From the NCBI GenBank assembly GCA_031213475.1, contig JARUPZ010000026.1, forward strand, positions 6,245,785-6,309,784: a stretch of DNA of 64,000 nt, written 5' to 3'. Numbering within the stretch: the first letter of the stretch is position 1; every line of letters begins with the position of its first letter. The notes below the pieces were generated by a model. It had not been told where the DNA came from. It worked only from the letters and a program-made list of their open reading frames with translations, and did not search any database. This document shows positions 1 to 61,382 of this stretch, one piece after another. This DNA is from Nereocystis luetkeana (lineage: Eukaryota; Sar; Phaeophyceae; Laminariales; Laminariaceae). The position numbers and the translations under genes are program-made.

Positions 1-105
1 CCTCCCGCTGCTGCTGCGCCCGCCCATCCGTGCCGTATGTACGACTCCTCCTTTGGCGATGTACACCATTGCAGTAGTTCGGACGACAACGTAAACCAGT
101 GCCTG
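1..105 (+). CDS. Exon 1 of window (partial), N-terminal region
   Basis: Frame 1 is open from the window edge to a GTATGT donor at 106 and ends in phase 0. The peptide is Ala/Pro-rich, then has three cysteines (PCRMYDSS, HHCSSSDD, NQCL), as expected of an extracytoplasmic segment ahead of a DOMON domain. No domain is recognised; placement rests on the donor and frame only. Confidence 0.4.
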
Positions 106-3100: not shown

Positions 3101-6100
3101 CGCCCCCCTGCTGCTCGCTTCTGTTTTAACCCCATTCCCTCCATTGACATTAAAAAGGAAAAAACCGCCTACTGTGATATGAAATGGTGTGTCGCCAGAT
3201 GGCGGCCGCAACTGCGAATAAGGTTAAGGGACGAGATCCCCCCCCCACTCCCTACGACTACCCCTATGCATGCTATCCGGTGGTCTCCGAAAGTGGCCAC
3301 ACCAGAAAAATAACCAATTCATTGACGCTGTCACCCATCTGCATGCAAAGCCGTCTCAAAAGTGATTCTTAAAAGGATGCAGCTCAACCTTCATGCAAAT
3401 CGCTTAACATCTCACGTTTCTCTCCGCGCTTGGCGCAAACAATGTCTGCCTGGTCGGTGAAAACCCGAAGAGCTCCGCCCCGGCATTGTAGGGATGCGAG
3501 GGTCTATGGTCATACGTCTACGGTCATGCATGAAAATGAGTACACCCCCCCCACCCCCCCACCTCCCCCCCACCCACCCCCATACGACTACGGCCATGCA
3601 TGAGATCGAGTACATCTCTCCTATCGAGTACACCACCCCCCCCCCACCCCCCCCCCCCCCGTTCCGACATTGTAGATACGTGAGAGGCTATGGATTTACG
3701 GTTACGGCCATGCATGGCATGAGCACACCCCTCTTCTTCCTCCCCTCTCCCCCTCTCTCTTCCCGGCTTGGTTGGCAACTGCCGCGATTTGGATGCAACC
3801 TGCAACCCCACCCCGCCCTTGAAAGGCTGAAAAGTTTTACGCGAACGGCCATGCGCGACATCTAGTGCACCCCCCCGCGCGCGGAAATGTCCCGTTCCGT
3901 CCCCCTTTTACCCTCTGAGGTCCCCACTCCACCCCATCCCTGTTCCTCCGTTCTCCTTCCGCCAAGTCTCTTGAAGCACTCCCGTCGTTTAGGTCCTCAC
4001 CGCAACAAACCCAACCAAACGAAACGAAACCAAGTCAGATGAAACCTATCCAACCCGAAGCAGACCAGACCAAACCAAACTAGACCGAACCGAACCAAAC
4101 AGAACCGAACAAAACCAAACCAAACCAAATCAAGCCACACCAAACCAAACCGAAACCAACCCAACCAAAATGAACCAAACCAAAGCAAAACCTATCGAAC
4201 CAGATCAACCGAAACCGAACCAAACCACACCGAACGAAACGAAACGAAACGAAACGAAACGAAACGAAACGAAACGAAACGAAATCAAAACCAAGCCAAA
4301 CCAAACCGAACCGAACCAAACCAAACCAAACCAAACCAAACACCAACCTAAACTAAAACAAACCCGAACCAAACTAGCCCAAACTAAACCAAATCAGACC
4401 AAAACCAAACCAAACCCAAACCAGTACTCGTTTTTCTTTCGCTGAACAGCCGAACGGGACCTGCCCTGGACTCTAGCTCCTCGAGCTTGGAAGTTCACTC
4501 TGTATGCATCGATGGAGACTGGACCACTGTTGTATTCTCGAGGGACAACACCAATCTGAGCAGCACTGAGGTACGGAACTATCACTGCAAGTAACGCACG
4601 TTTGGGTGGGACCACCGGTCGGAGCAGGAGGCCTGATCCAAGCCAATACGTACAGACATTATCAGTAGTAGTAGCAAATAATGCGACATACACCCCTACC
4701 CGCCCCAATCCCACCGCCGCCACCACCACCGCCGCCGCCGCCACCACCACCACTATCACCACCATCACCACAACGACCAACATTACTACCACCACCACTG
4801 CCATCATCACCATGATGACTACCACCACCACTGCCACCATCACCATTACTACCTCGATCATCACCACCATCACCACACCACGCCAATCACTACCCATAGT
4901 TTCCTTCGTTCATGTCACGAAAATAATCTGTATTATTTTCCTTTCTCCAGGACTACGACGTTGCGGCCGACGTAGAGAACGGCATCTCAACGTCGGTGGT
5001 TTACGCCTATCGGGCGGGAGACGGGATCGGACAGCACACCAACAGCAACCGCGGCGCGGCGTCCGTTAACTTCGGAGACGGATCGTCGACGTCGGTGAGT
5101 AAACAGAGTATCATCGGATGTATATTTGTACATGGGGGAAAAAACGTGAAAGTCGTATACAGGGTAGAGATCCCTCGCACCTTGTCGCAAGAATGCTATC
5201 GGGTTTCCACACGAAAGCATTGTCACCAATCAACGCCAGGCCTCCAAACGGCTTATTTCCCCCCCCTCCTCGGCATTGTAGGGATGCGAGGGTCTATGGT
5301 CATATTATTACGGCCATGCATGATAATGAGTACACCCCCCCTCACAGGCGGTTCTTGGTAGAGGATGCAGATCACCCTTCATGAGACTCGCCGGACACCT
5401 CACGACGCTTCGCGCGTGGTGCAAGCAATGCCTGCCTGGTCGTTGAAAACCCGACGTGCTCCGTCCCGGCATTGTAGGGATGTGAGGGTCTATGGCCATA
5501 CGACTAGAGCCTTGCATGAGATCAAGTACATATCTCCTATCGAGTACCTCCCCCCCCCACTGCTCACTTCCCCTCGGATGAGTATCAGATTCTAACTCAT
5601 TTTGTTTAGGGGATGGTGAAGCTTAGCCCCCCCCCCCCGAACAGCAACGAACGGTGGTACATACCTCGTCTGTATTATTGGGGGGGCGATTGATGAAATT
5701 CGTTGGGTGTAAAACATATCGAATGGAGCAACAGTAGACTATTTATAGGCTCCCGTGCGCTCAATAGGTTTTTCTTTCCTTGGTCTCCTTAGGTGTTCTT
5801 GATAGGTCTGGCGGCTTTGTGTTTGAGTGACCGACCCTAGAGCCCAACACGAATCGGGCAGATCACCGATGCCCCCTTCAATATCTAGATCATTCAGGGC
5901 AGATATAGCCCTGATCTGTATGACCTGCATGATCTGCAGAAGGGCATGTCTCCTGGGTTGGATATGTACTATAGAGATCCTCCTACACAGCCTCTCGCAA
6001 CGGCAGTTCAGGATCTAGATGATCTAGATCATGATGAATCTAGATTAGACATCTGTATATGATCTAGATGATATATCTGTATATGATGTAGATGATATAT

Positions 6101-9100
6101 CTGCACGCAATCTATACGATCTATCTGTGGATGATCTGGATGATATACCTGTATATGATCGATGATCTATCTGTAGATGATATATATATGATATGTCTGA
6201 CGTGTGTTGCCTATTGTTGGATGACAAAGCATGGCAATAGTACGAATGTGTCAAGGGATGCTTACGATTCCCCCCCCCTCCCCCCCCCCCCCCCCCCCGC
6301 CCTCTACGCGTCCGGCGAGTGCCGGATCAAAACATGACTATTTCAGGGGGACGGTCAAACCTACCCCACCCCCTCGCCTGAAAAATACAGCCTAGTTTAT
6401 TGTATTGCTTGCGGTGCGTGTGTCGCTTGCCGTGCTTGATGTGCTTGCTGTGCTTGGTTCACTTGGTGTGCCTGCTTTGTTTGCTGCGCTTGCTCTGCAT
6501 TTTCCTCGCTTGCCCATTATCAACCGCGCTTCCGTGGTTTGGAAAGTGGTTGGGCTTCAGCGTTGTTTCCCGCGTGTTTTTTCACGTTCGGACAAGCTTG
6601 TGAGGAGGACCACGATGTTTTCTTCGAGTTTTTTTAATCCGCATTTTTCGTCTTCGTTCTTTATTATGTCATTTCATTTCCCCCCTCTGGTATCTGGTTT
6701 GCGTGGAAATATTACAGGGCGTCCTTTCACAGCTGCACGGATCGCGCCCGAACAATAACGATAGCAATACGAGCCGGCTAAGAACCTTGCCAGGGGCTTT
6801 GGCGACAACTGCGCGCACGTACGAGTCCGCCATGCTCACGTTGCAACGTGTTTTGCGCACGAGAACGTTTATGTGGCAACGTGTTTGGAGTCACCCCACG
6901 GTAGGGGTTGCACTTTGTGGGGCAACGGTTTCTGACCAATTGAGTTCCTTAAGGGAGGAACTACCAGTGAGGATGAAAAGTTAACTAGTATATTCGTTTC
7001 AGGACTAGCGCGTACAAGTGCCGGTCGGGTGGCACGAACGATATTTTTCCTAGTACTTTATCGGGTGAGATATTGAGCTACTAATGTTAGGGGTTCAGGA
7101 ACGTCTGGTGCATCCCTACTGTGGGATGGCTCTTTGTGTGCGGTAGGTACTCTTGGTGGGTTCATGCTAAGAATAATACTCTTTGTATTCAATACGATAA
7201 CTATTTACCAGGTACTACTTGAGTTTCCACCTAAGGGTGACACGAATAATAGGGTGTCTCTAACGTTAGGGTATGTATGTGCATGTACATTGTGTGGGCG
7301 AAACTACTTTTAAAATCGGTCGACATCCTACAGTATCTATATTTTCAGATAAGCATGATGGCAGGCTGAAACCGATTAGTTTGACGACTTGGGATTCGCG
7401 GTGAGTTTGGTAGTTTCGAGCATCCATATCATGTATTACGGGGGACCATAGTTCATAGGACCAAATATTGTTAGTAAAAATGGTTAAATATATAGTTTTT
7501 TTTTTATGTATACCATAGGTCCTATTAACTATGGTCCCCCGTAATAATATGTTTCGGTGTTTTTTCTCGTGATGCGTGTATCATACGCAGGTTTGCGAAG
7601 ATGACCAAGATTTCTTCTTGTTCCATGGCGCGCTCATCCTCATCGCCTGGATGTTTTTCGCGCCGCTGGGCATCTACTACGCCAGGTGGGTTGTTTATTT
7701 TGTGTGCTTCTGGTCAGCCTAAGGCGGAGAAGAATAACGCTTTGGTTTCGTTTCGAAACGAGGTGCGATCGTTTTCTCGACTAGGGAAACGGTGCTGAAG
7801 ATGGGCGATATTTATATACACATATATGTGCATATGTTCTTCTTTTTGTTTCGATTGCTCTTCTTGGTTTTCTTGTTTTATCGGGAAAGGTGTATGGACG
7901 ATCAACGTTGAAGCTACTGTGGTCCAACAGGCTATTGCAGTCCAGTAGTCTACTGTATGTAGGCCAACGTTTTTCCTTTTTATTTTGATTCCCCCTTGTT
8001 TTCTGTCTTCTTTCTTCTTTCGTGCATCGTCTATGGGTTATCAACGTTGAAGCTTTGTTGCCCAATGGGCTATATTAATCCAATGGCCTACTGAAGGCCA
8101 AAATACTTTCTTTTTTTCCCTCGGCTTCCCAGTTTGGTTTTCTTCTTTCTTCCATAATAAGTTGTTATGAGTGATCAGCGTTGAAGCTCATAATGCTGCT
8201 GCACATTAAGGCCGGGCGGCAACCGCAAGAATAACGACACTAAAAAAAAACATAAGTTAGTTTTCAAAGGGACCCCCAACGATGGGTTGAAATAATGACC
8301 AAGATGACAAAGTTTACCGTGTCTTCGCCGGTCGCACCGATGACTTATTACTATTTTGGGGGACCATATGAAATAGGACCTAACGGCACACACAGTATAT
8401 ATATATATATATATATATATATCGACATTTTTCATAACAATATCTGGTCGTATTTACTGCGGTCCCCCGTAATAGTGGTTGCCCTCGAATGCTGCTACTA
8501 ATGGAGTTGATTTCACCACTGTTCAAATCCCATCGGGGTAATGTTGTAGATATATTTATTTGCAAAAGTGAAAACGGAATCTCGAGAGTGCTGAGTGAGC
8601 GTAGCGTGGGTAGGCGCAGTTCGACGTCAGTCGACGGGGGACGACGGGGCCGAAGTGTTATCGCTGTAAAACCTCAAGGCGCGCACCGTGGGAGGCAGAG
8701 GGGGGGGGGGGGGGGGGGGGCTGCCATGTGACCCCGGGTCTGAGTTGCGGGTCGGACGGGGGGAGAAAAGACGCGCGAAGGTCATGAATGGGAAGGAAAA
8801 AATGACCAAATAAAGAAACGAACAAACACACAAACAAACAAACAAACAATAAAAAAAATGAACGCACGAACGAACGAACGGACGAACGAACGAACATGCA
8901 TCAAACGAACAAAAAAAAAACAGAACGAACGAATAAACGAACAAACAAACAGACAGACAAACACACACAAACACACAAACAAATACACAAAAACACAAAC
9001 AAACAAACAAACAAACAAACAAACAAGCAAACAAACAAACAAACAAACAAACAAACAAACAAGCAAACAGACTTACGATCGGACAAACGAGCACACAAGC

Positions 9101-12100
9101 AAACGAGCAAATGTGTATATAAATGATGAGCAAATAAATGAGTTACTTGCTTGAATGAAACGGCAACCTGGTATATCGGAACTGGCCAACACAGGTATCG
9201 GAAGGGAGACTCCGTCGCAATGGGGGCCATGTGGTGGCAGCGACACATGGAGCTAATGGTTGTGACATCCGAGATGGTCCTGCCTCTGACCTTCAGCGCC
9301 ATTTTCTCCACCTCCGGCTCGCACGACTCCTCCCATGCTAAGTGAGACCCTGATGGCGGTGGCGCTCACAACTAAAACGGAGGCATGCAGGGAGAGAGGG
9401 AGGGAGGGAGGGAGGGAGGGAGGGTGTGCTCATGTCATTCATGGAGGAGTTTGCTCACGACATGCACGCCTGTAATCGCATATGTCCATAGACCATCACA
9501 TCCCTACACAGACATTACTTACCCCAAGCACGTACAGTGAAGGGGGGGGGGGGTGGATTCGAACGGTCGGGGGGAGGGGAGGGATTGGCGGGGCGGGGAA
9601 GGGGGGGGCAGGGTATGCTCGTGTCATGCATGGTTGTAGTTGCATAACCATAGACTCTTCGCATCCCTACAACGCCGGGATGGAAGACGTCGAGTTTTCA
9701 TCGACCAGGCAGGCATTGCTTGCACCAAGCTTTGCGACTAAGCGTGACGATAAAGCGAGGGGGGTGTTTAGTCGACAAGGACGGGGGGGGGAGGGGGTAG
9801 CGAGGGTGCAACTGCCAGACTGAAGGACGAGGAGTGTCCTCATTATTGTGTCGAGGGGGGTGGTCGAGTCGATTGCGTTGAAACCGCCAGAAGAGGAGGG
9901 GGGGGGGGGGGGGGGAGGGGTTGTCGACGAGAGATGGGGGGGGTGACGTGGCGGGGTGTGGGGGAGGTAATGTTCCACGATGAGGACGACGATGACGGGG
10001 GGCGTTCGCTGAATGAGAGTGGAGGGGGACGGGATTATCGTTTAGACGAGGTGGGAAGGCGCGGGGGGGCTAACTATTTGGAAAACGGGGCCAAACGGCG
10101 AGCGGGGGGGGGTATTTTGTGAGAAAGACGGGAAAGTAAACGGCTGTGCACAGTGTATTTTTTTTCAATTCAAAGTTCGCACTCCAACAGAACCAACATA
10201 AACATCGCGTCGCCCACGGCCTTTGGAATCGTTGAACAAGAAGGTTGGCGGGGGAAGTGAACAATCTCGTCCACAGCAAACGATGTCTCTCTGTCTCCCT
10301 CCCTCCCTCCCTCCATCCATCCCTCCCTCCCTCCCTCCCTCCCTCGCTCCCTCCCTCCCTCCCTCGCTCCCTCCCTCCCTCCCTCCCTCCCTCCCTCCCT
10401 CCCTCTCTCCCCCTCTCCCCCCCTCCCTCCCTCCCTCCCTCGCTGCCTGCCCCACTCCCTCTTTGCGCTGTCTGAAATTGCTTCCATGTTTATATATGCC
10501 CTGGGCAACCTCTGCAAGATGGGGGTTCTACATGATGGCAGGCATTTTCTTGCAGATTGTGACGGGGTGGCTGCGTACCAAGGCCCTGGAGGGCAAGCAC
10601 CCCAATTTCTCCACATTTCATCGGGTGATACAGAGAGTGACCATTCAATATAACCTTTGTGTTTTTTTCACAGAGGGTGACCATTCAATATAACCTTTGT
10701 GTTCTCACCTACCTGGTAGAACCCACGAGTTGTTTGGCGTTTAGCGCTATTCGTTTCCTGGCTTTTGCGTTGTTTTCTGCTATTGAAGTGTTGTTGACGT
10801 TTTGCTTGTTGCTCTTTTCCGTTTTGGCATACAGAGGAGGGGAAGGGACGGAACAGATGGGCAGGGGGGGATAAGAGCACGATCCGATTTTTTGCAAAAG
10901 TGTCGTATGTTGTATTGTGATCGTTGCTATTTTTCAAAACTAAAACGGAATCGCACGTGCACATAGGTAGCCCGTTGGTTTGTTCTTTGTACACCAGGAA
11001 TGTTTTAGGTGCCAGATGAACAAGAGCGTCCTCCTTTTTACAAAAAAACTCTGAACCGTATGCGCGGATCGGCATTTTCTTTCCCGGTGACAGATAAACA
11101 AGAGCGTTCACATATGGTGCGGGCAGTTCGCCTACCTAGCGGGGGTCGTGCAGTGCTACCGAGGAGTGGAGCTGGTGTCCTCGAGCGACAGTCTCGTCTT
11201 CTCCACCTTCGACATCGATTATGAGGTCAGAAAGTACAAGACGGACTGTCTCCCAATTTGATTTATTGGTCTGGAGCATATACGTAGTCGTAACCTTAGC
11301 CTTAGCTTTGGTCTTGGTCTTAGCCTTAGCCTTAGCCTTAGCCTTAGCCTTAGCCTTAGCCTTAGCCTTAGCCTTAGCCTTAAGCTTGCCTTTTAGCCTT
11401 AGCTATAGCCTTGACCTTGGTTTTAGCTTTGGTCTTAGCGTTAGCCTTCGCCTTCGCCTTCGCCTAAGCCTAAGCCTTAGCGTTGGTCTTAGCCTTAGCC
11501 TTAGCCTTAGTCTTAGCCTTAGCCTTAGCCTTAGCGTTATCCTTAGCCTTAGCCTTAGCCTTAGCCTTAGTCATAGTGTTAGCCTTAGCCTTCGCCTGAA
11601 TCTTCGCCTAAACCTTATTATTGGTCTTGACGCTAGCCTTAGCCTTAGCCTTATCCTTATCCTTAGCGTTAGCCTCAGCCTTAGCCTCAGCCTTAGCCTT
11701 TGCCTTCGCCTTAGCTTTAGCCTTCGCCTTAGTCTTAGCCTTCGCCTTAGCCTTAGCCTAATCAGTATACCTTAGCCGTAGCCTCAGCCCTAACCTTAGC
11801 CTTCGCCATAGGATTAGCCTTAGCGTTAGCCTTAACCTTAGCCTGCCTTATAGCCTTAGCCGTAGCCTTGGCTTCAGCCTCAGCCTTACCCGTTAGCCTA
11901 AGCAGTATTCCTTAGCCTACGTATTGACACCGCCTGGTCTTCTCGGCCTTCGATGTCGACATCGAGGTTGGAAAACCCAAGGTGATCTCGTACGAATCTC
12001 GCTGCTAAATAACCGCTGTTAGTATTTATATTGCCTTAACATGCCAGCTTTGGTGCAGGGGCGGGCAGTCAAAGGGTCGAAGCGCGATCTCTTATGTTCC

Positions 12101-15100
12101 ATTTTGTCTGGGAGAGAGTACAAACTCGTGTTGACGAAGAAGTTGGTTGACCTCAATTTGGTTGGGATTCTTGTGGTCTGTTTCTTATATGTTGATGTTT
12201 CTCCAACCCAATATTACGGGGGACCATAGTTAATAGGACCAAATATTGACGGTAAAAATGGTTAAATACGTACCTGGTAGGTTTTTATGTATACCATAGG
12301 TCCCATTGACTATGGTCCCCTGTAATAGTAGTTAAATCGGTTACATATGCCATATTTGGCCATGCCTTTTTTGCCACAACCTTACTACTTGGTGTACTGT
12401 AGGAAAATCAAGGCGTTTATGGATCGGGGTAGTTTTCACTTACCTTAGAAAACAGACCACAAGAAACCCAAACAAAATTGATTGCAAGCGAATGCTTCGC
12501 CAACACCCTGAATCATCGTTTCGTGTCTCACGAAATCTGGATAACAAACGGGTGATACACTCGCCGCCAGAGTGATATTAGGGCACTAATTATCGGGGAG
12601 CTTTTCCCCCATAATACTCATGTTTTTTCGCGCGATTTTTCGATCTTCTTCCAGATTTTCCTGGGTTTTTTTCCCCCAAATAAATACGTGAAATATAACA
12701 AACTTGATTTTTAGCTTCTGGAGGGTTTCACTAATAATAGTCAGAACGCCTCCGTTATCTTGATATTTATCTCCAATTATATACAAACTCTGGAAATTAT
12801 GGGAAAAAAACTCGCCGATAACAACGAACCTTAAAATAATGTAGGATGTTTGACTAGTTATTCTAGCTTTTTACTGGATGCTGTTTTGGAAAGAGAAATG
12901 TTTGTGCTGGTTTCGTCAGTCGAACAACTTACTACTACTCGAACGCCGTATGCTCTTGTACAAGTAGTTGTTTTCTGTATAGCATGAAAAGTATCATTGT
13001 CGTATCCCCGTAATGTGTTTGGTGTTACTGGTACTGTCCTGGCTTTTGCTCTTTCCCCTTGGGGGCGCTTGTTCCTAAAATTGTTGTTGTCGCTGATATT
13101 GCTGCTGTTGTTGCTACTGCTACTATTACGGGGGACCATAGTTAATAGGACCAAATTTTGTTAGTAAAAATGGTTAAATATATAGGTTTTTGTGTATACC
13201 ATAGGTCCTATTAACTATGGCCCCCCGTAATATTACTGCTATACTTCTGCTGTAAATACGTCTGCTACTACTACCGCTGCTGCTGGTGCTGGTATTGCTG
13301 CTACTGTTGTTGTTGTTGCTGCTATACTGCCACTCACTTGCTGCTGCTACCTCTGCTATTGGTGCTCCTGCTGCTGCTCCTGGTCCTGCTTGTGTTTGCC
13401 GCTGATGCTTCAACATTGCTGCTGCTCCTGGTGCTGGGCTGAAAGCTGGGATCGTTCGGTATTGTGTGCACGTACGTTTTCCCGGCGTGGGCGACTGCCC
13501 TGTTCCTTCTGGTAGTCTTCCTAGAGACCAGGAAGCAAGTCCGGAGGGTGAGTCATCTTGGCCGATTCAAAAATACCAACTGCATCCCATTCTGGCCAGA
13601 AATATATACCTGGTATCCGTTCTGACCGTTTTGACTCTAAAGTATGTACCGAGTATAGGTACACCATTATTGTACCAGGTAGGTACTGTTATTATAGCGA
13701 TTACAAGGTTTTCCTTGGAGACTGTGGTTAGACTTTAAATCCAGGAGGTGTGGCAAGCTGGGAAGGGAGAACAGAGCAGCAGCAGGCGTTCGTTCCTCCT
13801 ACCAGCTGCTCGAACCTAGCTACCTCGGGTAAAACAACGAAAACGTAAAAAAAAAAACCTTCTTGAAAGCTAAAGCACAAAGCAGAAAGTAAAGCCACCG
13901 GGTGCCCGGGCAAGTATCACCAACCAGCCCAAAACGATTTGACAACTTCTGCGCAGTTCTATAAGAAGAAAACTATGTAAAGAACGAAGCTGTGAGATCG
14001 AGAATCACTCCATGTGTCGGGGGGGGGGGGGGTGATATTGTGGGGGGTATAGGAAGTATTCATACTCTCGTACTATATTTTAATATATCAACTAATTTTA
14101 ATAGTTTCCACCTGCGAGGCACACGATGGTTGGCATTCCACCATGGCTGTATACTTAGGAACGTTTTGGTATTGATATGTATGTACAATCGGGCTTTATA
14201 TTTCCGTTCAAAGTGGTATTAATAGTGTCTACTACGGGGGGCCATAGTAAATAGAACCTACGGTAAACACAAAAACCCACATACCTGGTATTCACCTATT
14301 TTTACTGACCATATTAGGTCCTATTCACTATGGCCCCCCGTAGTAGTAGTGTTGTTCCAACAAAAGTGGGTACCAGGTAGTTGCTTGCCGGCTGGCGACT
14401 AACTGACGCGGTTGACTGGTCGGCTGGCCATGATGTGGCTTCGTCATCATAGCATGTACAACAATTGGGTAAAGGGTGGTACTGTCTGTGCGTATTGCAT
14501 ATACAAATTATGAGCATCCCCAGGGAAGGAGAATTGATTGGATGATATTGAATGGTGGTTTTCGACGAATAATAATGGTGCGTCACCTTTTTCATTCTGA
14601 ATGAATAATTAAGGCCCAACACTACGCGTCCGGGACATGTGTCCTTCGACGAGCGGAGCCACAAACTAGCCACCTTAGCGGTGGAAAGCTTTGGGCGCCT
14701 CGGGGTAGAGGGCAGCAACTTCATCGACCAGCTGGCAGCTAGCGTCGTGGGGGGTAGGGATGGTGGGTCGAATGCAAGGAAGGGGGTAGTGAAGGAACAC
14801 CTGCTCCAAATCGTCTCGGTGACCACTCAGGTCGCCATTTCGAGGAGGGTGTCGAGGGTCAAGCTTCAGCTTAGGGACCGCCAAGAAGGAAGAAGGAACA
14901 GGGGAGGGAGGGACGACAGACCCACACCGATGGCGTGGGGATGGAGCTTGGATGCAGTTTAGGATTTAAGGATAGAACGTAATGAGAAGGAAGGAGCAAA
15001 TACAGCAAATAATAGAGTAGACAAGCTGAAAGTTGGCACGGAAGGGAGGTAGACCAAGTTGGTGCATGGGTTTCTTTTTGTTTCCGAGGTTTTCTTCTTT

Positions 15101-15253
15101 CGGGAAAGTTATGAGTGATCCATGTTGAAGATCATGCTGCACATTGTCAGATGGCAAGAGGAATAATAATAATAAAACAGGCCCTTTGCGCATTGTCGGA
15201 AGGCAAATAAATTCAAGATATACAATATATATATAATATTATATATACCTGGT

Positions 15254-15311
<58 letters not shown>

Positions 15312-18300
15312 TACGTACAACACTGTTAGATATGAAACACCCACAGCGGCCTTTGGCCTTGCCACACCGGGGCGGCACCGCCGATGGCGGTGGGTTTTGA
15401 TGCGCCGTGATGAGTTTTGGTGTAGATACAGTGGATATCTCAGCTTCCCCCCCCCGCCGCGCCCCTCTCTGAGTGAACAGTGGTGTCTCATGGGGAAGAA
15501 GCCTTCCGTGAGCAAGGAAACCCAAAAAGCCGAATTGTTGGTGGCACTGCTTCAACTAACTGTATGCACCTACTGCTGTAGCCAACGGATACCTAGCTGG
15601 CGTGTATTTAGTCATCCAGTTCACTGTGGTTCTACCGTTTTACTCTGGGGGTCCTATGTATATAATCCCCGTTTTGATTCTGTTGTCAGCATAAAACGGT
15701 GCTTATAACTCCGCCCAGAGTGCGGTGTAGGAGAACTGCTGCCAGTGACGTGAGGGTGGCATGTTGACGAGGAGTGCAGGGGACACGAAGGTTTACCAAG
15801 GTACCAAGGGAGGGAGGCGTTGTCGGTTTGGACGTAGCCGTTGGTCCATAGTCGTACCCAATGTCTGATTTAAGTCTGGTTGTGCTGATCGGTGTGATTT
15901 GTGCAGCTGCAATTGACGTACGAGTGCGATGGAGATTGCGGGGAGGGTTGTGTATTGTCCGGAATGTGAGCCTTTACGGAGTCTCCGTTTGTTTAGATTT
16001 GCCGAGAGAAGGCTTCGCTGGGGGAATGCGCCCTCGCTCACTCCGACTTTGACTGCGATGCAACCATAAATGGATATATTATATCCTCCTTCCCCCCCCC
16101 GCGCCTAACGGCGAGCTCGGTCTCCCCAACCGCACCCGGGCGCTTGAGTTGGCCCTTCTGGTGTAAGCGGAAGCCTGCATAAAAGTAACAGAGGGAAACG
16201 GTTGGATCATACCATAGGGGCGACACAGATCCAGCATCGACGACGTCGAGACCACCAGCACTTCTGACAGGGCGTCCGCACGAAAACCCGGAAGTTTTGT
16301 GCTACGACTACAGTACGTACCCCCTCTTGCTTTGCTGTGCGTGCGAGCAGGGAAATTCCAAAAAGGAAACACGTACGTGCAGAGGCGCCTTGCCTTGGGG
16401 GAAAGTTGATGTACACGTGCAGACGAAAAAAACTGAACCGCGTCGTACTATAGTGTACACCAGGTATACAAAAACGGGCACATCGCTGCCGTTTTTGCAG
16501 GTCGGGGTAGGCTGCGATTGAGGTTGCCTCCCAGGCTCCCCCGGCGCAGCCTGGGGTTGGGGTTAGGGCCTGAGCCCGCGCCTTCATGCCACCAGCGGAA
16601 GAAGCGTTTTCCCTTTTGAAATAGCGCGAGAATCGTGAACAAAAGTAACAGCAACGTCAGCAGTACAGCTAGCTAGACAAATAGACCCCCTGGACGATCT
16701 ATCCTACCACTGTATAAATCGTTGTCAAAGAGGTCCAAGTCTACGTTGACGCCCCCCCCCCCCTCTCCCTTTAGTGCAGACGGCAGTGGTTCGCTCTCGT
16801 CGCGAAAAACAATCTACCGCAGATCAGGATGCGAAGGCGGCGACGTAGCTCGCGTTTTATGTGTCTGGGGGTCTATTCATTCGGCCCGTTTTTCGGTTGC
16901 GAATCAGGGTCTCAGGAGTTGTTGCCGTCGTTGTTGTTGTTGCTCTTCTTGCTGTTGTTTTTGTTCGGCTTTTTTTTGTATACTGTTTGTTACGGTTTTT
17001 GGGGAGATCGGGTTGGGTATCTACGCCAGTAGCTTGATCCCACTAAACTAGGACCTGCTTAAAATAGACTCTCAGCCCGAACCCCCAGAAAGATCCTTCC
17101 AGACACGACGGGTGTGCGCTCATTATGGGGCAACAAAAAACAGGGGGGAAATCTTATGATCTGCCCACCCGCTTGTTGTTTCAGCCAGCCAGCTAAGCCA
17201 CGGAAAAGTGAGGGTCTGGTCCGATAGGAGGTCAAGGTCCGCAATCATGTGTCTGAACATGAACCACTAGTCTACTTGTCTTCTGCCTGTGCCCCCTCCC
17301 CTGCCCGCCCACCCTCCCCTTATTTTATATAGGTTGGGTTGGCGTCGGTTGGCAACGACACTGTGAAACATGCCGCTCACTACGTCAGCTAGACAACCAG
17401 GGTACCGTGTTTTGTTTTTGTTTAGGCGGTCGGTCACAGCTGGGTGTCGAGTTAGATCATTTTGTGCTAGGGAAATAACCTTTACTCCGCACAAGGGAAT
17501 TGATCGTATCACGTAGTGTTCAAGGTAAGGCACCCAAGAGGCAGTTACATAGTGCTCCCATTCCTGTCTCTGGAAGTGCCTACACCGGAAATTAAATTTA
17601 CCCATCGAAGCTGTCATTCATATCCAAGTCCGCCTCAAAAGCGGTTCTTAGTAGGATGCAGCTCACCCTTCATGACACTCGCCGGACGCCTCACGGCGCT
17701 TCGCGCTTGGTGCAAGCAATGCCTGCCTGGTCGGTCAAAACCCGACATGCTCCGTCCCGGCATTGTAGGGATGCGAGGGTCTATGGTCACACGACTACGG
17801 CCATGCATGAGATCGAGTACATCTCTCCTGTCGAGTACACCCCATGCCTGCCCGCCCACCCACCCACCCACCCTCGCTCTCCTCGTGACGCGAACCAGTA
17901 CCAAAGGAAGGGGGAGGCGAGGTTCATGGGGCTGATCACCATCACCAACGCCAACTACGACTACGCGGCGGAGAAAAAGAGGAAGGAGAGGGTGGCCGCC
18001 AGCGGGGATGGGAGAATGATGGCCAGGAGGCAAGAGCTACCCATATTCACGATCGAGGAGTTCAACTACAAGGTGGGATGCTTGGCTTGTTTCCGGGGGG
18101 TGGGGGGTGAGGTCGGGAGGGGGTTAAGAGGAAGGCGAGGGGGGGGGAGGGTACTCATTTGTTGTTTTCCTTGGTCATTTGACCATTGATTATGCACCCC
18201 TTTCGACATGGAGCACCGTTTCTACTCCTAATAGAGACAACTCGAACAGTTGGGCGTTCTTCGCGTTATTTCTATGTATTAAGATAGAAACGTTTTGCTT

Positions 18301-30295: not shown

Positions 30296-30335
<40 letters not shown>

Positions 30336-33204: not shown

Positions 33205-33269
<65 letters not shown>

Positions 33270-33465
33270 GTAGTAATAATCTATATACATAACTATGTAC
33301 GTACCTGGTATATTGATATTACACGCCCCGTCAATAAATGATGAACGACGACGATATTTTGTCTCTGTTTTATGCTTTGTTTTGCATCAGATTCAACTGT
33401 TTTGTTTTTTCGTTTCATTTTTTTCGCTTTTTGTAAATTTTCGAAGGTAATTTTTTACCTGGTAT

Positions 33466-33503
<38 letters not shown>

Positions 33504-35826
33504 TGTACAGTCCCGCCAATCAATCAATGATGAGAGACGATGAGATCTCGTCACTGGCGAACATGCCAAAGGTAGAGGTGTCCACCGATTACCGATTCTG
33601 AGCTTCCTCGCTGGAGGAGGTCTGTACTACTGCTGTAGCAATAAACCACCTACCTACAAAAAAACTTTTGAAAAGAAAACCCAAAAGCAGTGGGTGATGA
33701 ACAATGCCATTGCCAAGGTGAAAAAACACTATTACGGGGGACCATAGTTAATAGGACCAAATATTGTTAATAAAAAAGACTAAATATATACGATTTTATG
33801 TATACCACAGGTCCTATTCACTATGGCCCCCCGTAATAACAATATCGAAGGAAAACAAGAGAATTCCGACGATTCGGGGTTAGGAAGCACCGTCCTTCGG
33901 AAAATATTTTCGACCAAACTGTGCCTCCCCTGTTATCGCAACAACACGCGTTTTGTTTGTCAACTCCTTTTGTATACGTATATATATATTATTGTTTGCC
34001 GAAACGGTACATTTTCATTTTGTTTTCTGTCGTTTCGTTTTGTTTCGTTTGTTTTTGTTTTTGTTTTTGTTTTTTGTTTTCGCTTCTTAGTTTTTGCTTC
34101 TTAGTTTTGTTTTTTTTTTCAATCGAGAATGAGGTGGTCGTGGTCAATTACCCTCGAATTATGTTGGTGACGATGGAATCTTGAATTATCGAAGCTGTTT
34201 TTTGTTTTTTTTGTTGTTTTGTTTTGTGCAGTCAGATGACGTCGAAATGGACGACGGAATACTGAATCTTATTATCATTATTTTGTGTTCGATACGTACA
34301 CTCAACTGTTTTCCGTGTTTTGTTTCGATTCGCCGAGCAGTGTTTGTTTCCGATTGAAGCTTTTTTTCGTTGTGGACTATTACGGGGGACCATAGTTAAT
34401 AGGACCAAATATTGTTAGTATAAATGGTTAAATATATAGTTTTTTTAATGTATTCCACAGGTCCCCTATTAACTATGGCCCCCTGTAATAATGCTACGGT
34501 AGGGTGAGCGAGGCGGGGGGTGTACTCGATAGGAGAGATGTACTCGATATCATGCATGCCGAAGTCATATGACCATAGACACTCGCATCCCTAAAATGCC
34601 GGAGTGGAGCATGTCGGGTTTGCACCCGACCAGGCAGACATTGCTTGCACCAAGCGCGAAGCGCCGTGAGGTGTCTGGCGAGTCGCATGAAGGGTGAACT
34701 GCATCCTACTAAGAATCACTTGTGAGGCCGACTTGCATGTGGATGACAGCTTTAATTGGGTTCATTTAATTTCCGGTGTAGGCATTTCCAGGACGGTGAG
34801 ACGGGGGGGGGGGGGGGGGGGGGGGTATGATGGCATGATTTTTCACCACCGCGTTGACGTCGCTCGGACGAATGTCGCCCTCTACCTCTCTCAAAAAATG
34901 GGCGTACCATACCAGCAAACAAAGATTATAGTGGTTTGTTTGTCGTGGAGTGTAGCAAATGATCCCACGCACGGCGGGGCATATCGCGGAAAACTAGAAT
35001 GCTGTGAATTTCTATCTGTGAGTGGCGAGCAAGAACGTGATCAGTCGGCCGAGCGGCTCTCATCGGCTGAAAGTAGTATCATATAAATAGGCACCCAGAC
35101 CGTACCTAACGCCCCATGTTTTGGCGTTTGTTCCTTCATTTTTGTTCCAGGCGTTTGCAGTGTTTCGGCATCTATCTGCTTTGTGTGTTTCTCGAAGTTT
35201 TTCATTATTTGTTGTTGGTGGCGTTGTTCTTGTTTTTGTCTTCCGCTTTTTCATTTTTTTCTTTTTTGTTCCATTTGGGGGAGGGGCTATGCACCTGCTT
35301 CTTGTATAACAGTAGGCTGTTTCGATACGCTTTGCGTTTCACGTTTGCTTTCGCCGTTTTGTTTTTGCGAAATTCCTCTTCACTTTTTCTCTGCTTTCGC
35401 AGTCGGTTTGATGTTCTGGTTTTCCTGGCCCCATTTCGGAAGCTCTTATTCCCCCCCCCCCCACCCTCCCTCCATTTACCCCTCCCTCACCAAGCATACA
35501 CAAACACGACGGACGCTCTGTCATACTACCGACGGAATTCCCCCCTTCCCCCCTTCCGGACGCCCCTTGCCCCCTACCCTTCCCAGCCCCCCCCCCCCCC
35601 CCCCCCTCCCTCCCCCCAGAGTAAATCCGCATCCCACCCAGTTCACACCCCCCCCCCCAACTCCCCTCCGCTACCCAACGCTCGGTGGCGACTCTGAAAA
35701 AACGAAACCGACACCCACACCAACACCGACAACAGTGGTGCAGCTGATCCGAGACTACCAGAGTTTTCAAAGGTGAGGCTAGAGATGCTGACCGTGTTTT
35801 GCACAACCAAAGAAGGCGGGGGGGGG

Positions 35827-35860
<34 letters not shown>

Positions 35861-38800
35861 CTACTTGGTACCATGCATGGCCGTAGTCGCATGACAGTAG
35901 ACCACCGCAACCCTTTAATGCCGGGGCGGAGCACATCGGGGTTTTCGCCGGAGCGGGGGGCGGGGGGTACTCCTTTGTTGTTTGCTTCAGTTAATTTGAC
36001 CATTGACCGCGCATCCCTTTTGAGACGGGGGGTGGGGGGGGGGGGGGGGGGGGGGGGGGGTGATGCTCGTTGTATGATCGAAAATGTGGCCCACGACATC
36101 CATTTCTTGGGCTATAGCTTTGTGTTGTTTGTCCACAGGGACGGCGGCTGGGTCTCGTTCGCGTGCAAAACGTCGACCACCCCATGAACAGCTACTACAT
36201 AAAAAAAAGAAAGTATGCGTGTTTGAGAAGCCGACTATGTAGGGAAGCTCCATTTTTTTTTTGTTTCTTACGTTTATCCCCCTCCATCGATATGTGCAGC
36301 AGCACGAGATTCAACGTCGATCGCTCATGAACATTCATTCCACCCCCCCGAGAAACGTTTTCGTCGAGTATTCAGGTTCTGATTGGGGATAACATATATG
36401 TCTTGAACGTCTTCGGATCCTGGGTTCCCTTTCCACATGTTGTGTGGAGGGTCTGGTCGGAACGTGCACACTTTCAGACGGCCAAATAACGTAATACTAA
36501 CACACAACTCAAAATAAGCCCAACGAAAACGACACATATCTTATATATTCGCACGACGCTTGCCAGGGTGGAGGGCGCACCCAATTCCCGCCCCCACCCC
36601 CCTTACCCTCCGCCCCCCTTCCCCCCCCCGCCCCATCACGTAGTGTTTACGGCGAGGCACACACGAGGCAGTTACATAGCACCCCCATTGCTCTCTCTGA
36701 AACTATAGCCACACCGGAAAATAAACAAATTCATTGAATGAAGCGGTCATCCAATGCAATGAAGCTCGCGCCAGACGCGAGGTTCTTCGTTCTTGGAGGC
36801 GGGTGCAGCTCAAGCCTCCATGCGACTCGCCGAAAACCTCTCGGTGCGTCGCATTTTGGTGCAAGCGATGTTTATGCCTGGTCGGTTAAAGCCCTACGCG
36901 TTCAGTCCCGGCATCGTAGGGATGCGCGGGTCTATGGCCATACGGCTACGGTCGTGCATGGACAGGATGAATATGTGTTGCATTCACATTGCACCGTTAT
37001 TTTTACCCAGCTACATCAGTGCACCCGTTGCCCATCACGATTTTTTTATCTTAGTCGAGAGAGAACACACTCTGTGGTTAACATACTGCTGTGAGATAGA
37101 GAAAACAAACAAACAAACAAACAAACAAACAAACACAAACTAATAAAAAAAGGGTTAGAAAAATGTCAACGTACCGGGCGCGAGAACACAACTACACAAG
37201 CCATACAAGAAAATAAGAACGAAGAGAACATGTTCCACCAAAACTCCCCCTTATCCCCCATTTTTTTACTATCCACGTTTGGTTTTGACTACAATATATT
37301 AGTATGTTTCCTCGTAGTAATAATACTATTATTATTTCTCTTGCCATCCGACAATGTGTCAGCATGATCTTCAACATTGATCATTCATACCTTTCCCGAA
37401 AGAAGAAAACTATCGTAAACAAATAAATGCGAATATATATTATGTGTTTCATACTCACTGCGGTCCTGCATGCTGTTTCCGTTCTCTCGTTCTGCGTCTC
37501 GTTTTATTTTTCAGCGAAGACACCTTCCACTCCTCTGGAGGGGCAGCAGGAAGAGGGGGCTCTGGCCCACCCGTCGGGTCAAGGTTGCGTCTCCTCTGGC
37601 AGGCCGGGAGCGCCGCCGATCTGTACTGCATGGACGAGCTCAAGAGTCTCGAGGTGCACCGCGCTGACTGATATACAATCACTTCTGCTGCCGTTCCTTC
37701 TATTTTTCTGCGTGTAGCCACCCGACAACGTGCGTGCGGCATGAAATCCATTTTTTTTATCACCCAGAAACATGAAACACAAACCCCGAAAGAAGAAGAA
37801 GAAGAAGAAGAAGAAGAAGAAGAAGAAGAAGAAGAAGAAGAAGAAGAAGAAGAAGAAGAAGAAGAAGAAGAAGAAGAAGAAGAAGAAGAAGAAGAAGAAG
37901 AAGAAGAAGAAGAAGAAGAAGAAGAAGAAGAAGAAGAAGAAGAAAAAGAAAAACGAGACGCGCGCGTTCTACGATAGAGGTAGCACATTTCCGTTGAAAT
38001 GTTTTTTGGACAACGGGGTTCCTCCACGCAAAAATCGTCGGAATTGACGCGTTTTACGATAGAGGTAGCATATTTCCGACCAAAGTGTTTTCTGAATGAC
38101 GGGATTCATCATCCCTAAATCGTCACAATGTTAATCTTGTTTCGAAAAATGGCGTTTTTGTATACTTGGGCCATGGGGTTTTTCGTCGGGATGCAATTTG
38201 TTTTTCACTGAGGTCGGTTATCGGGTGAAGTATGGAGCCCTTCAAGTGAGGAGCCTCAGAAAAATCCAGGTAAACCTCTATCGTAGAACGCCGCAAAAAA
38301 GTCAATTATTTGACACGTCGCGTCGGACAGGTCATGATTTAGATCCTCTGCCAAAAGTTCCTCGCCTGTACCATTGTGAGAGGTTGTGCTGGATCTGCAC
38401 AGTCTCAGATAGATCCAACCCAGGAAACAACAGCATGTACTACAGTGGGTCATCGTGCATTTTACGCTTGCCACCCGGGAACACGACCTACAGTAAATCG
38501 CGCAACAGGCCGGGAAAATGTGTTCCTTTTACGATCTACGTAGATCATGAATTGAGAGCCGATGACCAGCCTGGGGTGTGATTCATTTGTTAGTTGTTTT
38601 CCCCGTTTTGCGTTGTGGTTTGAGCGTGTACGTATATATTCCGGAGATTTTAGTTTCAGTTTTTTAGTGTTTCTGTTTTTTTTATGCATTGTATGCGCGT
38701 GTGTTTCTTCGTATTTTCATGATTGTTTTGTTCGTCTTGGCTCTCTCCCCTTTCCATTTCCCTTCGCTGCAGGCAATGTCCTCCGGCAGGCTGAGGGTAG

Positions 38801-41800
38801 CCACGCTCGTCAGCTTTGACAGCTCGAAGGTCAACCACCCCGCGGCTCCTCTCCCCTCTTTCTTCCGCCATCGCCACCATCACCATCACAACCACCACCA
38901 CCACCATCACCAAGGCCTCCAGCACCAGTCTAAACCTCAGCTCCAACCTCGAACCCAAGCCCTAGCTCTAGCTCAAGAGCAGGAGCGAGTACACAATCAG
39001 GATCAAGAGCTGGAGGAAGAGCTGGAGCAAGAGCTGAAGCGAGAGCAGAAGCAAGAGCTGAAGCAAGGCCTGGAGCAAGACCTGGAGCGAGAGCTGGAGC
39101 GAGAGCTGGAGCGAGAGCTGGAGCAAGAGCTGGAGCTAGACCGAGCGTACCACGAGCAAGCGAGAGCTCAGGATATAGCGAAAGCCAGAGCCCACAATAG
39201 CAGCCGGCGCCGCTTCCCCCACCACCCCGACACTCCGCCCCGCAGCCTGGGCGACAACTCACCCCGCGAGCCTCTAGCCTCAGCCGCCACCGGTAACAGC
39301 AGTTCATCGGGTACCCCGGGTTACAGCTCTGATAGGCCTGGTACCAGTGGTGGTGGTAGTTGGGGCGGCAGTCGGGGGGGTTGGGGAGGGGGGCGGTGGG
39401 GTGGTAGTAGTGATGGTGGTGGGGGTTGGGGTGGGGGTCGGGGTGGTTGGGGAGGGGGGGGGGTGGGGTCGTGATGGTGGTGGTGGTGGTGGTGGTGGTG
39501 GTGGTGGTGGTGGTGGTGGTGGTGATCGTGGTCATGGTAAGGATGCAGCTGCCACGGGCGCTGCCGCTGCGGCTAGCCTAGACCCGGACCGGCGACGTGC
39601 GTCGCCCTCAGCCGCGGCGATGATGTCTGCCCCCGAGCGAGGGCTCGGAATGGCGTCAGCGGCCTCCAGGGCTAACGCGGCTTCGCGCGGGGTGTTCGCT
39701 TTCTCGTCAAGCATTCCTCGGCCACCACCGCTCACCGCGAGCGGTAGTCGCGGTAGTGGTGGCGGTGGCGGTAGTGGCAGGGGTGAAGACTGTACCGCGT
39801 TGGAGCCGGGAGAAGAAGGGGCCAAGCCCCCCCTCTTGCCGGGGAAACATCGGAAGCACTTCGTTGCCAACAGGTGAGGGGTGGTGCGGCGCCGTCGGCA
39901 TGACCGCCTTTCGTACCGCTCACATTTGTATTTTTCAACTGTTATAGCTATCCTCTCACCCCCACCCCCCAAACTCACTCCCACCCCTCCGTCCCGGCAT
40001 GGCAGGGATGCGAGGGTCTATGGGCGTACGACTACGCCCATGCGCGATAATGAGTACACCCCCCCTCCCCCCCCCCACACACATGCCCCCATCTCTACCC
40101 CCACCCCTTTTCTCTCCCTTCCCCCGATCCCCCCAACGCGTGTGTTAGCCTTTTGCAGAGGGGTTAGCCCCCCGCCCAAACGTGATAAATGATACCAGGT
40201 ACCTCCTTTTTTACATGAGGAGATATTTTTACTACAACTATTAATAGTGAGTCACCCAAACGCCTTTTTTTGTTCTTCCAAGAAACGTTGAAGAAAAACA
40301 AAATAACGTGCAACCCGACGAAGAAACCGAGCGTAGCTTAGGGCGTAATCACAAAACGAGTCGCCCGCCAACGGTGTTTTTGTCTTTCCAAGAAAATTTG
40401 AAGAAAACACAAAAACAAAACGTGCAACACGACGGAGAAACCAAGCGCCGCTTTACTGTATGGGCGTAATCACAACAAATAGTGTAAAAACAAACACGAA
40501 TTGGGAAAATCCGACGACGATGTTGGGGTAACCCTTTCGCGAGAGCAGTTGCGGTTTGGGGACAACCCGCTCAATTGCTTTGAGTAGTTTGTCCCCGAAA
40601 CGGGAACCCGGTCTAAACAAGTGTAGCTGTATATCTAGTAGCACCTGATTTTTTTCTTGAGCAACCTACCTCACATGAGAAGCTCCTTCCTGATGCTGAA
40701 TCAAGCCAACCGAAGCACATTTTTAGAAGAAAAAAAAAACATTTTGGGACAAAACCGCGATGAAAAAAGTGTCATCGCTTTGACGAAGTAGTTCCCACTG
40801 ACCAAACTAATCGTGCAATAGCAGGAGTGGGATGTATACCGGGTAGACGTTCCTCGGCTCGTTAGCTCCTCCGTCAGGCAGAAATATTTTCGGCCTACAA
40901 AGTGCTCGACCTCTATTCCGTAGCACGCGGCCCGGACCCGCCTTCGTTTACCTCCCACCCCTACCCCCCTCCCCCTCGCCTCAGCCTTATTTTCCATGAA
41001 ACCCCTCGTACGTGCTATGTGGTACGAGGCGTAGTTTTGTTTCTGCGTTATAAGGCAATATAGTCGGACTGACGGAGCTCGTCAGCTGGGGGACTAAATG
41101 CCCGGTATCCACATTTGTGTTGAACAACCGAGAGCTTTCTAAGCGATCAACGCGTGTTGTGAGGACAAGGGAGCCCACAACTCCTTCCCCCCGTGACCCT
41201 GGAGAAACATCCACATCACGTTTTAGGCAACCCATCTGGGGGAGCATAGAACCCCCGCGTATCCCCTTAGATCAGTTTTCTTTTACACGAAATCGCATCA
41301 ATCAGCTCAATCAGACGATGGCACGAGAAAACCCCGCACTTGCTATATTAGCACCTTTACTGGGGGGCATAGGATTGTTCGTCGGGTTCCTGAGCCTGCA
41401 TTTGTTTTTAAAACAAAATAACAAAGTCAGCTTTCGACTTATGTACAAGTTTAAGTTCAGGCCAGAACAGATTATCGGCCATCGGGTTTTTGTCAAGCCC
41501 CATTCAATCGGACCGCACTGGCTTCCGTTGTAGGGGGGGGGGGGCAAACCACTTGGAAATTATAGTAATAGTTTCAGTGGTACAACGATTCCTGGGTCTT
41601 GAAACCGTTTTCGGGTGGCCTTGCCTTGGTATGGAGCTCTCCTCAAATAAATGAGGAGGTTCATCAGGAAGATTTGCATGATTCACCCCTCTACCGCCCA
41701 TCCCTACCGTTAACCCGCCCTTCCCCACCCCTTGCGCGGTCCTTTTTCCCCACCCGTCCACCTCCCCCCCCCCCGCTCTGGAATTGCCTACACCGGAAAT

Positions 41801-44800: not shown

Positions 44801-45811
44801 CAAAGGCGCCGGCAGCGAGGAAGGAAGAGGAGGAGAAGACCGTGATCACGGGTATGGGGAGGGTGGGGGCGGCGGGGCTCGCGCTGCGATAGAGAGGGGG
44901 CAAACATCGTTCTTCAAGGAGGTGAGGCGAAAGAAAAATAAAATAAAATAACAATCGTGCGTACACACCTGGTACACATATATATGTTTCGTGTTTCATT
45001 TTGTCATCGGACAATGCGCATTGTGACTGAGTGTGTAAGAAGGTTGAGTCAGGAAAACAAACGAACGACGACAAAATCTCGAAGAAACAGGACGTAAGAA
45101 GACATAAAACCTTACCTGGTACAGTGTATACCTGATATGGTATCGTTTCCCTCTGTTGTTATGTGAAGGTGTTACCTACTTACTGAGCTATGGGGGTAAA
45201 AGACCGATCGATTAGACCCTGCCCAGGGTAGTCCTTACAACAGTTCCCCAAACTACTTAATCCACACTATTAAATAACTTAAGCCAGCAACTTATTAATG
45301 TCCTCCACCCCTACCCCGCGTACATGTTAATACTGTTTTTTCGTTTGCCGTCCGACTATGTGCGGCACGAGCGTCAACGTTGATAATTCGTGAAACTTTC
45401 CCCGCATGCCGTTTCAACACTATACACTTGGTAGCTAGGGTGTCGACCGACTCCTGTGACGGTTTTCGTTTGCCTGGGTTTTAGCATCGTTGTTTCATGT
45501 GGTTTATTGTTGCCTTCCGACAATATCGAGGAAGCACGAGCTTTACGTCGACAACTCGTTATTCAAGGTGGGGAGGGAAAAGAGATTAAAACGAATAAAC
45601 GAACAAACAAACGGGCAAGAAGGCAAACAAACAAACGAACCAGAAGGCAAAACACACAACAGACAAACAAACGAGCAAACGAACAAACACACAAACAAAA
45701 CGAACAAACAAAACAAACAAACACACAAACAAAACGAACAAACAAACAAACGAACAAACAAACAAACAAACAAACAAACAAACATCTATCCAGCAAACGA
45801 ACGCCACTCAC

Positions 45812-45842
<31 letters not shown>

Positions 45843-46170
45843 GTGTTCGTACACGAGCTGTTAGATTAGAATATATATACGAAGTATATATATTATATCG
45901 TATGGGCTCAGGCCGCAAAACCCTGAGCGACAGAGTATGATGGCTTCAGTTCGTGCTCCCCCCACGGCGTGCTACAGAGTAGTAGGTGGCTGGGACATCT
46001 CCCCGCTTTTCGCAGCGTGGGGGTGGAAACACCCTCCTTGAAGAGACAAATAATTGAGCGATGTAGCAAATCCCGCAACTTGTCGACAATCTCTCAAGTT
46101 GGTACGCCTATCAGGGTGTGCCAGACTGTCCAATGTCTCCACAAGGGTGTTTTCACGCCCAGCTTTTGCA

Positions 46171-46204
<34 letters not shown>

Positions 46205-61340: not shown

Positions 61341-61382
61341 TGTGGCGTCTGGGTTCTGGGATCTGAATCCGCGTGCTCCTGT

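Follow-up and report, generated by a model that had tools for sequence, protein, structure and literature searches.

The locus examined here raises the question of whether a single brown-algal gene encodes a complete trans-membrane electron path, and to which acceptor such a path would pass its electrons. The original prediction, made for a 64-kb stretch of Nereocystis luetkeana DNA (hereafter the window, to which all coordinates refer), described a gene running from 4450 to a stop at 50601 whose exons encode, in order, a DOMON domain, cytochrome b561 helices, cytochrome b5 and an FAD/NAD reductase. We built the exon chain from reading frames, exon borders and tblastn searches with homologues, and the exons bear out this order on the + strand. 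The window contains most of one gene and begins inside it. The introns of this gene are long, measuring 380 to 4351 bases from the first to the seventeenth exon. Seventeen consecutive exons (E1 to E17, 1821 to 37653) are each preceded by AG and followed by GT, with matching phases, and together give 1174 codons without a stop when E7 is taken to start at 11103. Used as tblastn queries against the window, 18 homologues (15 named or labelled brown-algal proteins and 3 EukProt models without species) produced 188 matches of at least 35 bits; their reversed versions produced none at that level (best 30.4 bits), and the best real match outside the exons listed here was a low-complexity one of 29.6 bits. 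Homologue counts for single exons refer to these 18 queries at a threshold of 25 bits.

The DOMON and b561 modules occupy E1 to E8. Coding had been thought to start at 4450, but an exon at 1821..1927 (E1; SIGFGGTEMTTAEDY..., holding the conserved DOMON Met) joins that position in phase and matches 15 of the 18 homologues. The middle of the DOMON domain follows in E2 (4450..4570; 7/18), and its end, with the conserved DOMON His in GIGQH, in E3 (4951..5094; 16/18). The b561 part consists of E4 (7591..7685; helix 1, His1 in FHGAL; 16/18), E5 (9195..9341; helix 2, His2 in WWQRH and His3 in SSHAK), E6 (10519..10624; helix 3), E7 (11094..11225; helix 4, His4 in VHIWCGQ) and E8 (13446..13547; the last b561 helix and the beginning of the positive stretch behind it), the last four of these being matched by all 18 homologues. 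E5, which was located by tblastn with the homologues and by its borders and which carries two of the four b561 histidines, had been missing from the earlier exon set, as had E17 (37515..37653). For E7, a start at 11094 (INKSVHIW) agrees better with the homologues than 11103 and would add three codons to the joined model. The introns are repeat-filled, and a partial exon copy lies at 11934-11966.

Cytochrome b5 begins, after a linker, in E9 (17899..18072; 18/18), has its core with HPGG and the second haem His (PHIH) in E10 (19266..19445; 18/18; Pfam Cyt-b5 36.2 bits) and ends in E11 (21470..22249; DAWEIARKMVVAYI; 5/18), which continues into a long low-complexity linker. The reductase starts in E12 (26348..26494; LERFHVCPLVLRERM...; 17/18) and continues with a strand in E13 (28582..28641; VRAISGVCHFKMRIMRRDRE; found by tblastn, 10/18). 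E14 (29798..30742) holds the FAD motif RSYNA, a long G/N/S-rich insert and then VPLCVEMRIRHVQGGAMSMLLERM; it is matched by 18/18, some of these matches possibly touching the low-complexity insert. The NAD(P) motif lies in E15 (32933..33047; ...VQLQGPF...IAAGTGINP; 17/18). E16 (35736..35772; (NP)MVQLIRDYQSFQ) is too short for tblastn (18.5 bits, 0/18 at 25 bits) and is placed by phase and motif, and E17 carries the NAD domain (SRLRLLWQAGSAADLYCMDELKSLE; found by tblastn, 13/18). A frame change had been proposed inside the exon then numbered 23. E16 ends at a canonical donor after 35772, which joins the NAD-domain exon at 37515, and the frame change is therefore needless; we rejected it as a real feature and read the sequence after 35772 as intron.

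Phases had also been said to join all the way to the stop. This holds from E1 to E17, but between 38773 and 50506 tblastn recovered only short, weakly supported pieces and no joined exon chain from E18 to the last exon. The beginning of E18 (38773..38859; AMSSGRLRVATLVSFDSSKVNHPAA...) stands in phase 0 after E17 and runs into low-complexity coding sequence, its end being uncertain (1/18, at 25.4 bits). A tentative exon at 49597..49699 (GRVTKAHLREVMGHEILRELQAKQ) reaches 24.6 bits at best (0/18 at 25 bits), and the last exon at 50506..50601 (VVVSGPSGFCFGVEAMLDEIGVPSESIVILD and the stop) matches 12 of the 18 homologues, with a best score of 46.2 bits. At the other end, positions 1..105 may represent an upstream exon truncated at the window edge (...SSFGDVHHCSSSDDNVNQCL), with a donor and an open frame; by eye, and without significance, it loosely resembles the stretch of relative P0007 between peroxidase and DOMON, and none of the tblastn matches listed for the homologues lies there. 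An exon for the first DOMON strands was not found in 106-1820, where the best mean score was 21.5 compared with 20.4-23.3 in five control stretches.

The absence of a DOMON-start exon from 106-1820, together with the repeat-filled introns and the exon fragment at 11934-11966, could mean that the locus is a decaying copy, that is, a pseudogene, and the long branch of the window sequence in our tree (0.81) would fit such a history. Against this, the 1174 codons contain no stop and the ligand residues are kept; moreover, the Sphacelaria P0006 and Choristocarpus P0003 models also begin inside the region corresponding to E1, so the sequence before it may just be difficult to locate. We therefore consider decay unlikely.

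An HMM domain scan of the spliced protein, which the original prediction had proposed as a check, supports part of the domain assignment. On pieces of the joined model, the Pfam models Cyt-b5 (36.2 bits, cut-off 23.7) and NAD_binding_1 (31.4, cut-off 22) pass, but DOMON (19.5, cut-off 32.7, the domain being partial) and FAD_binding_6 (18.7, cut-off 21.1) fall below their cut-offs, and no b561 model is among the matches listed. A separate question is whether two adjacent genes, one for a DOMON-b561 protein and one for a b5-reductase, have been mistaken for one; introns of 4351 and 4098 bases lie at both places where a gene end might be suspected (13547-17899 and 22249-26348). The phases nevertheless join across both, and homologous predicted proteins, for example P0002, P0015 and P0018, hold the modules in a single chain spanning both intervals. 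All such single-chain homologues come from brown algae where the species is named, except one from a chytrid, and they are gene models rather than cDNAs. Because homologous predicted proteins hold all four modules in one chain, their presence in one protein is well supported, and we regard a two-gene origin as very improbable.

Relatives were collected in three protein searches, each of which scored the 8000 (or 7999) best candidates, so that the distribution given here applies to those candidates. The joined model, which as a query still included the stretch after 35772 now read as intron, retrieved 10 proteins, all of named brown algae. A profile search returned 29 proteins: 22 from named brown-algal genera, 3 labelled Undpi1 (presumably Undaria), 3 EukProt models and 1 from the chytrid Rhizophlyctis rosea. 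A search with the peroxidase portion of P0007 gave 102 proteins, among them many peroxidases of bacterial, metagenomic or animal origin. Genera named in the results of these searches are Ectocarpus, Scytosiphon, Choristocarpus, Sphacelaria, Pylaiella, Ascophyllum, Laminaria and Discosporangium, and some Ectocarpus relatives bear the database names 'peroxidase' and 'peroxinectin precursor'. In a tree of 21 rows the window sequence pairs with Sphacelaria (100/98), both branches being long and drawing a branch-length warning from the program.

The relatives do not support the view that the four modules make up the whole architecture. Longer relatives carry an N-terminal animal-type peroxidase domain upstream of the region equivalent to the part of the gene in the window; the window starts downstream of this position, and the domain is thus known from the relatives alone. 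A precomputed animal haem peroxidase label is attached to 19 of the 28 non-chytrid proteins of the profile search, while the other nine start too late or are marked partial and are probably truncated models. In six relatives scanned with Pfam, the peroxidase domain is nearly full length (207.6-253.5 bits, cut-off 25). P0015 (1690 aa) and P0014 (1633 aa) each combine animal haem peroxidase, DOMON, cytochrome b5 and NAD_binding_1 above the Pfam cut-offs in one chain, and by our own reading of the sequence the Discosporangium model P0013 joins the peroxidase to the beginning of DOMON. The predicted family plan is accordingly a peroxidase-homology domain followed by DOMON, b561, b5 and reductase. 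On the tree, the peroxidase label is not clustered (7 changes, a number as low in 275 of 500 shuffles); its distribution partly reflects truncated models, and the tree does not decide whether the domain is present in the window copy. The Pylaiella model P0112 was considered as a peroxidase-less four-module version and was not counted, its start lying by eye inside the end of the peroxidase domain.

Haem ligands of this domain were compared in an alignment of 22 algal rows with 10 control sequences, of which 3 are animal and 7 bacterial or unnamed. The distal haem His is absent from all 20 algal rows that cover the site and the proximal His from all 21; only 6 of 20 rows still have the catalytic Arg, whereas all 10 controls retain the three residues. 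This loss sets the algal relatives apart from animal haem peroxidases and peroxinectins. A similar condition is described for human DUOX1, whose peroxidase-homology domain lacks key haem-binding residues such as the ligand His (PMC7794343). Because the haem ligands are lost, we expect the domain of the relatives to act, by analogy with human DUOX1, as a non-peroxidase outer module. Among the candidates scored, the non-algal proteins that match it best are peroxidases from bacteria or unnamed metagenomic sources, with identities of about 30%. In a comparison with solved structures, DUOX1 receives 72.8 bits from the algal peroxidase profile, less than peroxinectin A (137.7) and less than myelo- and lactoperoxidase, and P0007 alone gives a tie between DUOX1 (82.2) and peroxinectin A (82.5).

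Turning to the redox centres of the window protein itself, the residues expected to bind one DOMON, two b561 and one b5 haem are all present. Their conservation was counted among 33 homologues, using those with a letter at the site: the DOMON Met is found in 27/28 and the DOMON His in 27/29, b561 His1 to His4 in 28/28, 26/27, 25/25 and 27/27, and the two b5 haem histidines in 23/24 each. The Pfam DOMON model passes in some relatives (for example P0015, 36.9 against a cut-off of 32.7), and the b561 model stays below its cut-off of 23 in every algal protein scanned (best 15.3). Searches of solved structures returned no hit for the b561 profile and one irrelevant hit for the DOMON profile. A crude hydropathy scan found four of the five helices that we read in the sequence. 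Net positive charge after the first helix (4 to 2) and the last helix (15 to 6), together with a higher density of N-x-S/T sites ahead of the first helix (0.92 per 100 residues) than behind the last one (0.37; 11 proteins), fits an N-outside, C-inside topology, which we infer.

The FAD/NAD module adjoins a cytochrome b5 with HPGG and resembles NADH-cytochrome b5 reductase. A profile built from 24 homologues, all algal except the chytrid protein, matches the solved enzyme 2eix (E 5.6e-9) and a solved cytochrome b5 (E 8.8e-6), and a profile without the chytrid (8 algal sequences) gives 2.5e-5 for b5 reductase and 3.4e-5 for cytochrome b5. The Gly-rich NAD(P) motif of b5 reductase-type flavoproteins, GTGxxP, appears as GTGINP in the window and as GTGxNP in 19/19 homologues. 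Two other motifs depart from the type: the FAD motif, RxYTP in b5 reductases, reads RxYNA here (RSYNA in the window, Asn in 22/22 homologues), and a C-terminal Ser-Gly replaces the expected Cys-Gly in 15/16 homologues. Because of these two changes, flavin or NAD handling could differ from that of b5 reductases. The window family further differs in its long low-complexity inserts and in having membrane and outer modules fused in front. NAD_binding_6, a model of the ferric-reductase type, is hit in several relatives without reaching its cut-off of 22.2 (best 21.6, P0004).

The membrane part recalls the plant CYBDOM proteins, in which an outer DOMON with a Met/His pair and a four-His b561 core serve trans-membrane electron flow (Arabidopsis HYP1 and CRR; PMC10784544, PMC10784552); for HYP1, two pairs of His are reported, and a DOMON haem held by Met and His is a candidate (PMC10784544). 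In the window, the corresponding DOMON Met/His pair and four b561 histidines in two pairs are all found, judging by aligned residues. The proteins differ in that HYP1 uses cytosolic ascorbate (PMC10784544), whereas in the window protein the membrane part is followed, in the same chain, by b5 and a b5-reductase-like module, and its relatives carry the peroxidase-homology domain in front. We class the family as a variant of the trans-membrane b561 electron carriers.

Taken together, these features make it probable that the window gene encodes a redox protein of plasma-membrane type that is laid out as (peroxidase homology)-DOMON-b561-b5-linker-b5-reductase-like module and would pass NAD(P)H electrons to an outer acceptor. 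From module order and topology we infer the path and its direction: cytosolic NAD(P)H would reduce FAD, FAD would pass electrons to the b5 haem, and from there they would move to the inner and then the outer b561 haem across the membrane, and on through the DOMON haem to O2 or ferric iron as the extracellular acceptor. On present sequence evidence, the most likely function is to reduce one of these acceptors at the expense of NAD(P)H, and we lean slightly towards O2 because of the peroxidase-homology domain.

If the acceptor were iron, the protein would serve iron uptake as a self-sufficient ferric (or cupric) reductase, with another outer role for its peroxidase-like domain. We know of no ferric reductase with a peroxidase-homology domain, and in DUOX that domain belongs to an H2O2 maker; both points count against this function. 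On the other side, plant CYBDOM HYP1 reduces ferric and cupric substrates (PMC10784544), and DOMON-ferric-reductase proteins are recorded from Phytophthora, Albugo and Naegleria (PMC3591440). The latter (eFRE with DOMON) likewise place an outer DOMON and an inner reductase in one chain, although their membrane part is a ferric reductase domain rather than b561 and b5 (PMC3591440). On balance, iron uptake is possible but somewhat doubtful.

If the acceptor were O2, the protein could be a DUOX-like generator of H2O2 or superoxide that supplies the oxidative burst of brown algae as well as extracellular vanadium haloperoxidases. The likeness to DUOX includes a PDB match (E 1.1e-19) and, in the algal relatives only, an N-terminal peroxidase-homology domain without haem ligands. 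DUOX differs in having a NOX-type membrane domain and EF hands: neither a NOX/ferric-reductase membrane domain nor EF hands are listed in the Pfam scans of 18 homologues (some truncated), and this speaks against a DUOX-like generator; the aligned residues show the b561 His pattern instead. To our knowledge, moreover, O2 reduction by b561 cores is not established. By its membrane domain the family is not a DUOX member, and we read the likeness, mainly from that membrane part, as convergence. In favour of reactive-oxygen production, the outer peroxidase-homology domain lacks its haem ligands in the relatives covering the sites, as in human DUOX1 (PMC7794343); kelps show an elicited reactive-oxygen burst and have many haloperoxidases (PMC8307928), and haloperoxidases use H2O2 (PMC13198595). 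PMC8307928 also places NADPH oxidases in all multicellular lineages, and the burst therefore has another candidate source. We give a DUOX-like generator not much less than an even chance.

A broader form of this idea, namely that brown algae evolved their own dual oxidase, in which a haem-dead peroxidase-homology domain and a DOMON-b561-b5-reductase wire make extracellular superoxide or H2O2 as a source of the oxidative burst that feeds vanadium haloperoxidases, is put forward tentatively, as somewhat short of an even bet. Were it true, the two lineages, animals and brown algae, would have started from different membrane parts and arrived at one and the same plan, with the same loss of haem ligands. 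If the proposed electron path is right, whichever the acceptor, one chain would carry NAD(P)H electrons through four haems and a flavin to the outside without ascorbate or partner proteins, and the family would be a specific candidate to underlie either the oxidative burst of brown algae or iron reduction at their surface. The relatives repeat the DUOX plan on a different membrane scaffold, with the peroxidase haem ligands lost as well, and so provide a natural experiment on the puzzling role of the dead peroxidase domain in DUOX.

The original prediction knew of no characterised enzyme with the four-module order. Among the literature matches listed, with subscription journals mostly outside the coverage, no paper on a peroxidase-DOMON-b561-b5-reductase protein was found. 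The sponge protein DspNOX similarly fuses b561-like (or DUF2427) helices to a flavoprotein oxidoreductase in one chain, but the flavoprotein there is a NOX that is regulated by calcium and brings a haem core of its own; PAS and EF-hand parts are present, and no DOMON, b5 or peroxidase is mentioned for it in the available portion of the report (PMC9524095). The four-module order may nonetheless be rare rather than unique, because the Rhizophlyctis rosea protein P0116 probably shares it, without a peroxidase. In P0116, the b561, b5 and FAD modules pass the Pfam cut-offs in one chain, and we read the front as DOMON-like, in line with a profile match that is weak (hhalign probability 25, E 7.5e-4). 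The algal b561 profile aligns with it at a probability of 92.8 (E 4e-7; three of the four His aligned), P0116 itself matches NADH-cytochrome b5 reductase (E 6.9e-11), and its identity is 22% over 45% of the query. It differs from the algal proteins in that no peroxidase domain is listed, in its canonical RYYTP motif, and in an SH3-like stretch inside the reductase that scores below the Pfam cut-off.

The window also contains repeated copies of a short element whose ends are inverted (TATTACGGGGGACCATAGTTAATAGGACC). When its 23-base core was searched with up to three mismatches allowed, 30 matches were recovered between positions 7440 and 63462, compared with none in 100 shuffles, and 24 of the 30 were located inside the gene (1821-50601). 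Our pairing resolved the matches into 13 facing pairs and 4 single ends, with a span of approximately 110 bp in 12 of the pairs and 180 bp in the remaining one.

The intron following E7, the exon that encodes helix 4 of the b561 module, contains a (CCTTAG)n array of approximately 100 units (11294-11903), and 3′ of this array the 3′ end of E7 (LVFSAFDVDIE) recurs as an incomplete and diverged copy (11934-11966). Long arrays of two other repeats, (AAG)n and (CCACCACCA)n, were found at 37790-37950 and 43158-43641. Toward the downstream end of the window, two ORFs (60548-61384, minus strand; 62095-62442, plus strand) resemble, by eye, the reverse transcriptase of a non-LTR element, and a tRNA-Ser(cga) gene is located at 61661-61744 on the minus strand.

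Among the homologues, a hypothetical protein of the chytrid Rhizophlyctis rosea (P0116) probably has the module order DOMON-b561-b5-reductase, and an SH3-like stretch was matched within its reductase by Pfam, below the cut-off. Three further family members (P0024, P0025 and P0113) carry the species label Undpi1, which we take to denote Undaria. Because their labels place these gene models on a single scaffold, HiC_scaffold_21, with near-adjacent model numbers (7054, 7055 and 7058), the gene may have been tandemly duplicated there.
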